Shown here piece after piece: positions 2,110-56,717 of a stretch of 64,000 nucleotides of DNA. Every line of letters begins with the position of its first letter. Within the stretch, counting starts at the first letter, position 1. The notes under the pieces are model-generated. The model made no database searches, was not told the origin of the DNA, and saw only the letters and a list, made by a program, of their open reading frames with translations. Made by a program: the position numbers and the translations under genes. Origin of the DNA: Thermofilaceae archaeon (GTDB taxonomy: Archaea; Thermoproteota; Thermoprotei; Thermofilales; Thermofilaceae); NCBI GenBank assembly GCA_025057995.1, contig JANXEW010000002.1:1-64000 (forward strand). Reading direction: 5' to 3'.

Positions 2110-2258
2110 GCCCCGGTCGTATAGCCCGGCCAAGTAACGGTCGCGCTTGGTGTTTACATTGGGCGCGGCAGCCTGAATGCCGGCCTTTCGAGCCGGAGGG
2201 GGTTAACCTAGCGGTTGCCCCACGGAGAACCCGGGTTCAAATCCCGGCCGGGGCACCA
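2110..2258 (+). tRNA. tRNA-Glu (UUC) with two introns
   Basis: Acceptor GCCCCGG (2110-2116) pairs with CCGGGGC (2248-2254), followed by discriminator A and an encoded CCA. The T arm is CCGGG/TTCAAAT/CCCGG. The anticodon arm at 2180-2196 is CCGGC-CTTTCGA-GCCGG with anticodon TTC at 2187-2189. Two stretches do not fit a cloverleaf and are read as introns. Intron 1 is about 41 bases (about 2137-2177), lies in the 3' side of the D stem and contains a CGCGC/GCGCG helix. Intron 2 is about 28-29 bases (about 2197-2225), lies between the anticodon stem and the variable loop and contains a GGGG/CCCC helix. Exact splice sites are uncertain by a few bases. Confidence 0.9.
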
Positions 2259-4530: not shown

Positions 4531-6506
4531 GTTGCTGGAGTCTTCTAGATCGATGTTGCGAGAAGTGTTCATGTACGTTGAACAATCCGTGTTCTAATTT
4601 CATTGACTGTCGAATCACAGGCCCCTTGTGCCATGACGATGAGCAGTGCAGGGAGCTACGAACGAGGAGGTTTGAGGAATTAAGATATGGTGAAACTGGG
4701 TCCAAAATTAGGGTCCCCATAGCGAGCTGTACTTTAGCCACAGGCTCCGAAGCAGTTTACAACGCTATTAGGGAAGCGGTTGGGAAAATGAGGTTAAAAG
4801 TTACTGTAACCATCACGGGATGCCACGGGCTGGATTTCATAGACCCTTGGGTAGAGTTTACAGCGAAAGATATGCCGACGGCAATTTATGGAAACGTAAA
4901 ACCTGGCGACGTACCTAAGTTAATTGAAGATTACTTCATTAAGCGTGATGTCAGTAAAGCTTTCGTTTTGAGGGATAGGAAGGGAACGGCAGCGGGTGAA
5001 GATAAGGTCCCATTGCTTGAGGAGTTAGATTTCTGGAGGAAGCAGTATAAGTGGGTATCGCGAAACTGTGGCTTCGTAAACCCTGAATCTCTTGAAGAAT
5101 ACATAGCTAATGGAGGGTATAAGGGTTTAAGCAGGGCTCTTAAAGAGGGCCCCGAGAGGGTAATAGACGAAATCCTAAGGAGTGGGTTAAGGGGGAGAGG
5201 GGGAGCAGGCTTTCCAACGGGTATTAAATGGAGGATAGCGAGGCAACAGTCGGCAACCCCTAAGTATGTGGTCGCCAACGCAGATGAGGGAGACCCTGGG
5301 GCTTTCATGAACCGGCTTTTAGCTGAGTCTGACCCCTTCAGAATCGTAGAAGGGTTGACCATTGCCGGTTATACTGTTGGGGCCAGTCAAGGTTACATTT
5401 TTGTCAGAGCAGAGAAACCCCTTATGGCTAGGCGTTTTCAAATAGCCGTTGAAGAAGCTAGGAGACACGGATTGCTCGGTAAGAACATCTTAAATTCTGG
5501 ATTTGATTTTGACATAGAGGTTATTTTGAGTGCTGGAGCGTTCGTTTGTGGTGAGGAAACTGCTATGCTAGCAGCGATCGAAGGAAAAAGAGCATGGCCT
5601 AGGCAGAGACCACCTTACCCTGCCGAAAGAGGTCTATGGAATAAGCCGACGGTCATTAACAATGTTGAGACATTAGCGCACGCTGCTACAATAATGGCTG
5701 AAGGTGCGAATAAGTTTACAGAGGTAGGTACTGAAAAGACAAAGGGTACGAAAATGTTCTGTGTAACTGGGTCCGTACAACGTGTGGGAGCTTATGAAGT
5801 GCCGGTAGGAACTAGTATTAGGTGCCTCGTTGAAGAGCTAGCTGGAGGGGCGATGGGCAACTGTAAAATAAAAGCTGTTCAGATTGGTGGACCGTCTGGC
5901 GGTTGTATACCGGCTAACCTTCTCGATCTACCGATAGACTATGAGACGCTACAAAGCGCTGGAGCAATAATGGGCAGCGGAGGTATAGTGGTGATAAGTG
6001 ACGAGAACTGTATGGTGGATGTAGCTAAATTCTTTCTTACATTTACTTCTGCAGAGTCGTGTGGTAAGTGCGTACCCTGCAGGGTTGGTTTAAGGGTCAT
6101 GTGGAATATACTGAACAAAATAACGAATGGAGAAGGGTCGGAAGAAGATATTGATACCCTAAGACAGTTGGCTGAGACTGTGAGAACTTCCAGCCTATGT
6201 GCATTAGGCGGAACCGCGCCCAATCCTGTTCTATCAACTCTCCGTTACTTCATGGACGAGTACAAGGCGCACATCAAGGATAGGGTGTGCCCAGCCTACG
6301 TCTGTAGTGCGCTTATCAAGTACAGAATTAATGAGGAAAGTTGTATTGCATGTAGACAATGTGCTTTAAACTGTCCTGTGAACGCGATCTTTCGCGTTGA
6401 GGAGAGTGGTAAATATAGAATAGATGAAAAGGCTTGTATTAGTTGCGGGGTCTGTTTTACCGTATGCCCTGTGAAGGCTATTAGTAAGGTTTCCGCCTCA
6501 GGGTGA
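4527..6506 (+). CDS. NuoF/HydB-like flavin-dependent NAD(P)H-reactive subunit
   Basis: A 659-residue diaphorase subunit expected to bind FMN and NAD(P)H. A cysteine-rich N-terminal segment (C3, C10, C11, C14, C16, C22, C28, C35, C41) comes first. Next is a thioredoxin-like domain (about 60-140) that keeps only two cysteines (C68, C99) where four would hold [2Fe-2S]. The NuoF core follows, with GLRGRGGAGFPTGIKW, NADEGDPGAFMNR and FVCGEETAM, then an SLBB domain and the [4Fe-4S] motif ESCGKCVPCRVG with a later SLCALG cysteine. The C-terminus is a two-cluster ferredoxin (CIACRQCALNCP, CISCGVCFTVCP). This order matches HydB/HndC of electron-bifurcating and NAD-linked hydrogenases. Overlaps both neighbours. 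Confidence 0.95.
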   Translation: MSCWSLLDRCCEKCSCTLNNPCSNFIDCRITGPLCHDDEQCRELRTRRFEELRYGETGSKIRVPIASCTLATGSEAVYNAIREAVGKMRLKVTVTITGCHGLDFIDPWVEFTAKDMPTAIYGNVKPGDVPKLIEDYFIKRDVSKAFVLRDRKGTAAGEDKVPLLEELDFWRKQYKWVSRNCGFVNPESLEEYIANGGYKGLSRALKEGPERVIDEILRSGLRGRGGAGFPTGIKWRIARQQSATPKYVVANADEGDPGAFMNRLLAESDPFRIVEGLTIAGYTVGASQGYIFVRAEKPLMARRFQIAVEEARRHGLLGKNILNSGFDFDIEVILSAGAFVCGEETAMLAAIEGKRAWPRQRPPYPAERGLWNKPTVINNVETLAHAATIMAEGANKFTEVGTEKTKGTKMFCVTGSVQRVGAYEVPVGTSIRCLVEELAGGAMGNCKIKAVQIGGPSGGCIPANLLDLPIDYETLQSAGAIMGSGGIVVISDENCMVDVAKFFLTFTSAESCGKCVPCRVGLRVMWNILNKITNGEGSEEDIDTLRQLAETVRTSSLCALGGTAPNPVLSTLRYFMDEYKAHIKDRVCPAYVCSALIKYRINEESCIACRQCALNCPVNAIFRVEESGKYRIDEKACISCGVCFTVCPVKAISKVSASG

Positions 6507-16455: not shown

Positions 16456-17001
16456 ATGAGTACTGTAGCTACATTGTTAGTAAATAGAATTCTTATATTT
16501 GACAGAGCTAAATCTAGAAACTTCTACTTTAATGAAGGTTTTTATGGTAAGTTTTACATGGTAAGTAAACCGAAAAACTTAAACGTTGAAAGAGAGCTAG
16601 AACTTTCGCTAATTGAAGCACTATATCTTTCCGAGAATGGTAAAATCGAAGTGAGGGACAGGGAAGGCAACCCAATAAATACTGAGGAATTAAGGCGATT
16701 AGGGCGGGAAATGTACGAGAACTTTGATGAAGTATACACGGTTTACAAAGATCTAAGGGAACGGGGATTAGTTGTAAAATCGGGTATGAAGTTTGGCACA
16801 ACTTTTGTCGTGTACAGGTTGGGTCCAGGCTTAGAACATGCACCTTTTCTTGTACACGTACTTCCCTACGAGAGTAAATTGGACCCGATAGAAATAGTGA
16901 GAGCTGGACGACTCTCGCACTCTGTAAGGAAGAAACTAATTTTAGCCTACGTAGATAACAACGGTAGAGTAGGTTACCTTCAGTTCAGATGGTTAATGTA
17001 A
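16456..17001 (+). CDS. endA: tRNA-splicing endonuclease, catalytic subunit
   Basis: Cuts introns from pre-tRNA at bulge-helix-bulge sites. Of 181 residues, the C-terminal catalytic domain shows FVVYRLGPGLEHAPFLVHV and SVRKKLILAYV, giving the triad Y120, H128 and K160. The size fits a single-repeat subunit, which in Thermoproteota pairs with a structural partner; that partner is not in the window. A TATA-like element (about 16423-16434) suggests a leaderless transcript starting at or just before ATG 16456. An adjacent GTG at 16453 is less likely. The intron-rich tRNA genes here are its natural substrates. Confidence 0.93.
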   Translation: MSTVATLLVNRILIFDRAKSRNFYFNEGFYGKFYMVSKPKNLNVERELELSLIEALYLSENGKIEVRDREGNPINTEELRRLGREMYENFDEVYTVYKDLRERGLVVKSGMKFGTTFVVYRLGPGLEHAPFLVHVLPYESKLDPIEIVRAGRLSHSVRKKLILAYVDNNGRVGYLQFRWLM

Positions 17002-55340: not shown

Positions 55341-55477
55341 TGGTGGGCCCGCCGGGACTCGAACCCGGGACCTCCGTACAGGTCTGACGGAGGCGGTCTC
55401 GTCAGACTTGTTCTACGGGTCTGGAGCCTCGACCACCCATACGTGTCCGCCGCCATACCTTGCTAGGCCACGGGCCC
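55341..55477 (-). tRNA. tRNA-Trp (CCA) with two introns
   Basis: Acceptor GGGCCCG/CGGGCCC, discriminator A and an encoded CCA; T arm CCGGG-TTCGAGT-CCCGG. The anticodon loop CTCCAGA gives CCA. Removing about 19 bases between positions 30 and 31 restores the stem GCGG-G/CCCGT. Removing about 41 bases between the anticodon stem and variable loop leaves AGGTC; that stretch contains a GTCTGAC/GTCAGAC helix. Both introns are at non-canonical sites. The second shares its location, and its ACGG|AG end, with intron 2 of tRNA-Glu. Splice sites are approximate. Confidence 0.87.
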
Positions 55478-55766
55478 GTTGCATAACTTCTTGTTATAAC
55501 TGGGTATAAGCTTTTTGCCTCCTATTTCAAACTTATATTGCCGTCAGCTGCACGTCTGGTTAAGCGTGAGCTTTTTATTGGCAGTTGGCCTTTAGACTGA
55601 TGGACACCGATGCTACCTTATAGCGTATAAGTAGTGCTCGTTAAGGTTAAGTGAACCGACTTATAAGATTTCGAAGGCTAAAAAAGGGGACCTAAAGCGT
55701 GGGCGCAATGCTTATAATATCCAAAAAAAGCAGGGCTTCACTGAAGCTTGGCATCATGGTGTTGAG
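55478..55766. other. Intergenic region upstream of coiled-coil gene
   Basis: Contains the tRNA-Trp promoter on the minus strand (AGCTTATACC, near 55505-55515) and a probable plus-strand TATA (GCTTATAATATCC, near 55710). Nothing else was recognised. Confidence 0.45.
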
Positions 55767-56717
55767 ATGCTAGGGTCAGATCCCGAACTTCTGAGAACTA
55801 GGCTTGAGGAGCTAAAGATTCAGCTAAGGACTTTAGAAAAGGAAGCTGAAGAACTGCGTAATAATAGGGATTCTCTTAACTCTGAGGTTAAAGAAATATC
55901 GACTAAACTAAGGCAGCTGGTGATGGAGTATAAGGAGTTGAAGGATGAATATCTAAAACTAAAAAATCAAAAAGAAGAAATATATAATAATATGCAAAAA
56001 TTGAAAAATAGTAAAAATCAATTAAGAGAGGACCTAAATGCATTGAGCAGTGAAGTGAAAACATTATTGAATGAAATGAAAAACTTTCAAGAAATACTAG
56101 GAAGAAGAAAAGTAAACGTTTTTGAACTTAGAGAAAGACTAGAGCGCTTAGAGTGGGAGTATCAAACCCGTACTTTTAGTGCAGAAGAGGAAAAGAGCTT
56201 TGTTGAACGGATACGCGATACTGAGTCTCTGCTTAGGGCTGCAGAACGTTACAATGAATGTGTGAATCAAGTCAAGGGCATTCGACAACTCATATCAGAG
56301 AAGAGGAAGAAGATAACTGAGTTAAATACACAAATAAAAGAATTGTCCGAACAGTATATGCAAATAAAATCAAAATTTAAGGAAATAAGAGAAAAGTTAA
56401 ATAATCTAAGAACAAATATAACAGAACTAATTGATAAAAAAGAGGCTTTAAGAAGGAAGGCAGATGAGTATCATGGTAAGTTGATCAATAAAACTATTGA
56501 AATTAAGCAAGTAAGAGAAGATGTTGAGAAAACTGCTTTGTTACTTAAGGCTGCCGAGATGTCTCAAACATTGACCAGAAGACGTGCAGAAATGTATGAA
56601 TTAGCTTTGAAAGCGCTTGAAAAGTACAAGCAGGGTGAAAAACTCTCGCTGGATGAATTCAAATTACTCATGGAGTTCAGCTTGATCGAACATGGTGCGG
56701 CTTCAAGTAGCTCTTGA
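55767..56717 (+). CDS. Archaeal coiled-coil protein (COG1340-like)
   Basis: 316 residues, almost entirely heptad coiled coil rich in Glu, Lys and Leu (RLEELKIQLRTLEKEAEELR; ELKDEYLKLKNQKEEIY). A short middle break at about 120-150 holds ERLEWEYQTRTFSAEEEKSFVERI, a conserved-looking hairpin of the COG1340 family. No ATPase domain, so it is not an SMC protein. Overlaps hxlA by 26 bases. The role is unknown; association with ribosomes or chromosomes is speculation. Confidence 0.82.
   Translation: MLGSDPELLRTRLEELKIQLRTLEKEAEELRNNRDSLNSEVKEISTKLRQLVMEYKELKDEYLKLKNQKEEIYNNMQKLKNSKNQLREDLNALSSEVKTLLNEMKNFQEILGRRKVNVFELRERLERLEWEYQTRTFSAEEEKSFVERIRDTESLLRAAERYNECVNQVKGIRQLISEKRKKITELNTQIKELSEQYMQIKSKFKEIREKLNNLRTNITELIDKKEALRRKADEYHGKLINKTIEIKQVREDVEKTALLLKAAEMSQTLTRRRAEMYELALKALEKYKQGEKLSLDEFKLLMEFSLIEHGAASSSS

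Follow-up and report, generated by a model that had tools for sequence, protein, structure and literature searches.

Identification and anatomy of the tRNA-Trp gene

The stretch of DNA analysed (the window) comprises 64,000 nucleotides from the genome of a Thermofilaceae archaeon, referred to as G000. A tRNA-Trp gene with the anticodon CCA was identified on its minus strand, divided into three exons by two introns (Table 1). The gene starts GGGCCCG TG GCC... on that strand, and the T arm and acceptor at its 3' end are perfect. Removal of both introns (19 nt and 41 nt) gives a 74-nt tRNA, called as tRNA-Trp(cca) by ARAGORN.

Table 1. Features of the tRNA-Trp gene, the tRNA-Glu gene used for comparison and a splicing endonuclease gene in the window
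Feature	Coordinates	Strand	Basis
tRNA-Trp(CCA) gene, read 55477 to 55344	55344..55477	-	
Exon 1, tRNA positions 1-30 (acceptor 5' strand, D arm, first four bases of anticodon stem)	55447..55477	-	sequence, parser, ARAGORN on spliced product
Intron 1, 19 nt, site 30/31	55428..55446	-	BHB; same site in 12/13 complete family tRNA-Trp genes
Exon 2, positions 31-45, anticodon loop CTCCAGA, anticodon CCA	55413..55427	-	parser, ARAGORN
Intron 2, 41 nt, site 45/46	55372..55412	-	BHB
Exon 3, positions 46-73 (T arm, acceptor 3' strand, discriminator A)	55344..55371	-	sequence, parser
Encoded CCA end	55341..55343	-	sequence
BRE/TATA-like AAAAAGCTTATAC, ~30 nt upstream of tRNA-Trp	55504..55516	-	by eye, unscored
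tRNA-Glu(TTC), comparison gene	2110..2255	+	parser; spliced form is tRNA-Glu(ttc) by ARAGORN
tRNA-Glu(TTC) intron at 24/25, 41 nt	2137-2177	+	parser
tRNA-Glu(TTC) intron at 45/46, 29 nt, end ACGGAG	2199-2227	+	parser
EndA tRNA-splicing endonuclease domain (PF01974, 113.5 bits)	16723..16977	+	profile match

An in-house parser, the score of which adds a tRNA cloverleaf score to a BHB score, placed unaided a 19-nt intron at 30/31 and a 41-nt intron at 45/46, with a 74-nt product, the anticodon CCA and a score of 65 (scores are comparable within one parser version only, later versions having looser thresholds and a penalty for a variable arm of the wrong length). The runner-up for the same precursor scored 62 and is ruled out by its product, which is 89 nt in length and has a long variable arm. 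In a scan of the entire window on both strands, the two-intron tRNA-Trp is the top-scoring tRNA call; six calls reach 45 or more, namely tRNA-Trp, tRNA-Ser, tRNA-Leu, tRNA-Asn, tRNA-Glu and a weak, false-looking one at 5386-5514. When only the middle of the gene was dinucleotide-shuffled and the D arm, T arm and acceptor were left unchanged, none of 1000 shuffles reached the real score of 65 and two reached 60. An earlier, sequence-only reading of this DNA had placed a tRNA-Trp gene with two introns at 55341-55477; ARAGORN, the parser and the shuffle control bear out both the coordinates and the number of introns.

That reading had named a fold with a single canonical intron as the result that would overturn it. 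When one deletion was allowed and no BHB was demanded, the best model scored 54 (62 being reached by the two-intron model after splicing) and carried a meaningless class II anticodon CGT; the best class I model scored 49 and has a 12-nt D loop and the anticodon ATG. Neither is a sensible tRNA. ARAGORN in intron mode (-i) does read the precursor differently, as tRNA-Val(gac) with one 39-nt intron, but with CCA that product is 98 nt, far over the length of a tRNA-Val. A proper tRNA-Val(GAC) gene is present elsewhere in the genome (L027), a tRNA-Val identity would leave tRNA-Trp absent, and an almost identical exon 1 belongs to a clear tRNA-Trp gene in each of the relatives G002, G004 and G006. 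The single-deletion test and the relatives refute a one-intron or tRNA-Val reading, and the probability that the gene has one canonical intron or encodes another tRNA is negligible.

The gene is not detected by ARAGORN with default settings or by Rfam at the gathering threshold; with loose thresholds, Rfam gives a partial match of 20 bits, which is below the gathering score. General tRNA finders thus overlook this two-intron tRNA-Trp gene. Such poor detection might also be expected of a decayed or non-functional copy, but the low Rfam score is explained by the introns, the exons retain stems, anticodon and CCA, and this is the sole tRNA-Trp gene found in the assembly, no second one being present among the 44 tRNA genes called. 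It would be most surprising if the gene were a relic.

Splice motifs and splicing machinery

Both introns possess a BHB motif with a 4-bp core, two 3-nt bulges and an inner helix of at least three pairs, all four core positions being paired in each. In intron 1, exon positions 25-28 (CGGC, 55452-55449) pair with GTCG (55433-55430), including one G-U pair, and the inner helix is CAC/GTG. In intron 2, exon positions 40-43 (CCGT, 55418-55415) form four Watson-Crick pairs with ACGG (55377-55374); the inner helix consists of three plus eight pairs with one A-C mismatch, and the bulges are AG|A and AG|G. The outer helix has two pairs for intron 1 and none for intron 2, which makes the latter a relaxed motif without an outer helix. 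The BHB modelling suggested as a check by the sequence-only reading yields a core and bulges for both introns, and that reading's placement of one intron at 30/31 is confirmed.

Its second intron is likewise real, but was put two bases away, at 43/44 on the boundary between anticodon stem and variable loop. Since AG stands at both edges of intron 2, the sequence alone permits splicing at 43/44, 44/45 or 45/46 with an identical product. Only 45/46 positions the perfect 4-bp core and the 3-nt bulges properly; a hand check at 43/44 revealed no BHB core, and the parser also favours 45/46.

Unconstrained folding of the precursor at 37 °C gave a different structure as the minimum free energy (MFE) fold (-62.4 kcal/mol). 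This is better by 5.3 kcal/mol than the fold with both BHBs forced (-57.1 kcal/mol) and by 1.2 kcal/mol than that with the second BHB alone (-61.2 kcal/mol). This discrepancy counts against the two-BHB fold, although energies computed at 37 °C are probably a poor guide for a hyperthermophile whose tRNA is modified.

A second EndA gene (PF01974) is located on contig 44, giving two PF01974 genes in the genome. In excerpts of two reviews (PMC4090602, PMC4033280), the alpha2-beta2 form of EndA is linked to relaxed, non-canonical BHBs. The two EndA genes found here probably fit such an alpha2-beta2 enzyme. Introns whose removal restores a normal tRNA occur here in a genome that encodes EndA.

Distribution of tRNA-Trp introns among relatives

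A complete tRNA-Trp gene is present in 13 of the 17 genomes of the family sample; none was found in G005, G007 or G008, and the contig of G003 ends at gene position 30. Four genes share the arrangement 30/31 plus 45/46 (G000, G010, G011 and G013), three possess 30/31 plus 37/38 (G002, G004 and G006), five 30/31 alone (G009, G012, G014, G015 and G016), and one a D-loop intron plus 37/38 (G001). Site 30/31 is accordingly occupied in 12 of the 13, 37/38 in four, 45/46 in four and the D loop in one, with 37/38 and 45/46 together in none of the 13. Among six other members of the order with a complete tRNA-Trp gene, four have an intron at 37/38 (15-22 nt), one of these having another at 26/27, and two are intronless.

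Base 43 and its partner covary in the core of the 45/46 tRNA-Trp introns, being U43-A in G000 and A43-U in G011; G013 has a U43-G wobble and G010 a C43-A mismatch. G000 and the other three 45/46 carriers (G010, G011 and G013) are placed in two different supported clades by an EF-1alpha tree built from 25 genomes, the order of branching within the clade of G000 being without support. The history of the 45/46 intron of tRNA-Trp needs at least two gains, or one gain and many losses. Compared with its congeners, G000 differs in its intron set from G001 at both sites and from G002 at one of two. The tRNA-Trp gene, which is essential and single-copy, offers a clean case of rapid turnover of introns between archaea of one genus.

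The gene lies next to a coiled-coil ORF (55767-56714), from which tRNA-Trp (55344-55477) is divergent here and with which it is co-directed in G006 (L342). In G001 (L340), a tRNA-Ile gene takes its place beside this ORF.

Origin of the shared ACGGAG intron end

The sequence-only reading had noted that intron 2 shares its site and the end ACGG|AG with an intron of tRNA-Glu, and took this as a sign of intron spread between tRNA genes. The sharing is real and extends to three tRNA-Gly genes and the other tRNA-Glu gene. In G000, 44 tRNA genes with 57 introns were called, at least one intron being present in 41 of the 44 (parser calls are less certain for tRNA-Cys, one tRNA-Thr and the 24/25 intron of tRNA-Glu(TTC)). 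Ten of these introns are at 45/46, in tRNA-Trp, two tRNA-Glu, three tRNA-Gly and four tRNA-Arg genes. All ten end ACGGA(G/T/A): ACGGAG in the Trp, Glu and Gly genes, and ACGGA(T/A) in the four Arg genes.

The CGG of this end complements exon positions 40-42 (CCG), and in tRNA-Trp the first A of ACGG pairs with U43. An A stands two bases before the 3' splice site in 54 of the 57 introns, and in 44 of the 47 outside 45/46. Because of the CGG pairing, the A-U43 pair and this preference for A in the bulge, an unrelated tRNA-Trp intron would often end alike. Agreement in site and in the last six bases is weak evidence that an intron has been transposed, since both are imposed by BHB pairing together with a constant base in the bulge.

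The interior of the intron has no convincing match. Without its last six bases, intron 2 was compared with 54 introns called in G000, after removal of repeated loci of a single gene and of calls scoring below 36, and with 102 introns of a wider set. The best hits were to tRNA-Gly (p=0.04) and tRNA-Leu (p=0.02), neither of which survives correction, so that no similar intron was recognised in another isotype; a pattern search allowing up to three mismatches found no other copy of this interior in 27 genomes of the order. Spread of an intron between tRNA-Trp and tRNA-Glu is not supported by these sequence comparisons.

It could still be argued that a tRNA-Glu, tRNA-Gly or tRNA-Arg gene in G000 was the donor of the 45/46 intron of tRNA-Trp, through recombination between tRNA genes or through reverse splicing and reverse transcription, and that the interior of the intron later diverged beyond recognition. 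This would accord with the site and end shared with two Glu and three Gly genes, with a Gly 45/46 intron having the closest same-genome interior (p about 0.04), and with the 45/46 introns shared by tRNA-Asp and tRNA-Glu(CTC) in the sister species G002 and G003, which show that exchange at this site does occur in the genus. However, pairing and bulge preference predict the common end, the interior p value is not significant across 54 tests, the candidate donors have G43 and other flanking exon bases than tRNA-Trp, and gene conversion alone suffices for the Asp and Glu genes, which share their flanking exons. Such a transfer is considered unlikely, if worth keeping in view. Within the Arg/Asp/Glu/Gly set itself, 16 of 18 introns (one of the 18 being of unresolved isotype) have A opposite G43 in the 45/46 core, where C would pair. 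Pairing does not account for this G43-A mismatch, and the introns of the set may have a common origin.

Exchange between other tRNA genes

A comparison of tRNA introns across the genome and its relatives, which had been proposed to reveal transposition, left the tRNA-Trp interior without a convincing counterpart and uncovered exchange elsewhere. Between tRNA-Asp and tRNA-Glu(CTC), the 45/46 introns agree at every position in G002 (19/19; L174 and L176) and at 19/20 positions in G003 (L168 and L172), an alternative register being possible for the latter pair. Interior identity is 1.0 and 0.93, respectively, for these cross-isotype pairs and at most 0.77 for the same isotype across genomes, in a comparison that left out the isotype-unresolved L180 and identical copies of Arg(GCG) and Gly(TCC). 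On sequence grounds, the Asp and Glu(CTC) introns appear to evolve in concert between isotypes in both genomes; gene conversion of 3' halves would be enough, as the flanking exons are also shared.

Exchange between tRNA-Trp and tRNA-Lys is possible, but the similarities are suggestive only: the 45/46 introns of Trp and Lys in G013 gave p 0.018, and the Trp intron of G010 gave p 0.0096 and 0.0042 with the Lys introns of G005 and G009, all uncorrected for 21 pairs. The introns of Gln(CTG) at 36/37 and Ala(CGC) at 22/23 in G000 looked like a transposed pair but are not taken as one: they agree at 15 of 17 bases (p 0.00045), which is near chance over 1596 intron pairs, same-isotype pairs included. 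The Trp and Lys(CTT) genes of G013, G010, G005 and G009 (L108, L154, L152, L153 and L166) have nearly the same 5' half where both could be read, which together with the partial likeness of their 45/46 introns is the ground for a possible Trp-Lys exchange.

Proposed splicing and history of the gene

Taken jointly, the findings are very probably best explained by an ordinary two-intron tRNA-Trp gene spliced by EndA, with an old intron 1 and an intron 2 gained within the lineage, the ACGGAG end of which does not come from tRNA-Glu. The precursor would form two BHBs, exon positions 25-28 pairing with intron 1 and 40-43 with intron 2. The two-gene EndA, probably alpha2-beta2, would cleave within the 3-nt bulges, and ligation of the exons would give a normal tRNA-Trp; we infer these steps, as well as expression of the precursor, from the gene and its relatives. 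Intron 1 would be an old feature of the family, vertically inherited. Intron 2 would be a lineage-specific gain in a gene with fast turnover of its intron set, its end arising from pairing with its own exon together with the genome-wide bulge preference, rather than by descent from tRNA-Glu.

A more speculative proposal, with a slim chance of being correct, is that tRNA-Trp of Thermofilaceae is a hot spot of intron swapping in which new introns are born by palindrome target duplication. Introns would here be swapped and not piled up, the canonical intron being lost while a new one arises in the D loop or, on at least two occasions, at 45/46. Insertion of a short hairpin that duplicates a self-complementary exon tetramer may make a new intron spliceable from birth, the duplication providing the BHB core at once. 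The 38-nt D-loop intron of tRNA-Trp in G001 (L370, contig 86, minus strand) is bounded by the 8-bp direct repeat GCCTAGCA, the copies of which lie exactly one intron length (38) from each other, and its exon core CTAG is self-complementary, so that target duplication at CTAG would create a BHB. CCGG at 45/46 is possibly alike: in Glu and Gly, exon and intron both end CGGAG.

Comparison with known tRNA introns

Sugahara et al. (2008) reportedly described non-canonical BHB tRNA introns of Thermoproteales, and Fujishima et al. (2010, MBE) are said to have described tRNA intron transposition in the same group. Excerpts of PMC4090602 list 30/31 and 45/46 among the known non-canonical sites and report several introns per tRNA gene, as well as intron transposition, in Thermoproteales. 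Multiple non-canonical introns and their transposition are thus known there, and the present gene adds an instance. It resembles those described (in PMC4090602, in part) in its sites, in possessing several introns, in EndA-removed BHB motifs and in the crenarchaeal alpha2-beta2 EndA, and differs in particulars only (the gene, its sequences and the lineage). The reported transposition likewise concerns the same broad group as then defined and one site in many isotypes (PMC4090602 and PMC4033280, in the portions available); unlike in those reports, similar introns in different tRNAs are absent for the tRNA-Trp intron here, but are seen for Asp and Glu in G002 and G003. A figure of 0.84 introns per tRNA gene is given for Thermoproteales with tRNAscan-SE 2.0 in an excerpt of PMC8450103, and G000 has 57 introns in 44 genes. 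No description of this tRNA-Trp gene was found in open-licence papers.

The Haloferax-type canonical intron with its C/D box guide RNA is found in the same tRNA (PMC4090602, in part), but at 37/38, where neither intron of the present gene lies. No C box (RTGATGA) is present in the precursor, and its one CTGA is inside a stem. The statement that tRNA-Trp of many archaea carries a long canonical C/D intron holds, as regards length and site and leaving C/D boxes aside, for several Desulfurococcales (37/38, 57-67 nt) among the matches listed (at least 120, six without a call), obtained with a pattern that favours Trp and Lys genes and is no census; it fails in the present order, where these introns are short (15-22 nt). 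In Caldiarchaeum, a tRNA-Thr intron gained via integration of a mobile element is also a recent non-canonical gain in one lineage, according to part of PMC3293823, but no integrase or tRNA fragment was seen beside tRNA-Trp here when the ORF list was inspected by eye.

Putatively permuted tRNA genes

A locus on contig 44 of G000 (L036, about 75,165-75,636, minus strand) can be read as an initiator tRNA-Met gene in circularly permuted order, an arrangement resembling that of T. pendens as given in an excerpt of PMC3218864. The 3' acceptor strand with CCA (CCCCGCTACCA) immediately precedes the 5' one (AGCGGGG); the flanks are complementary over 11 bp, and the gene is broken within the T loop. Neither tRNA-Tyr nor tRNA-Asp is represented by a linear gene among those called in this assembly, which is 90.8% complete. 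The other permuted tRNA gene of T. pendens is that of tRNA-Tyr, and by analogy tRNA-Tyr of G000 may be permuted too.
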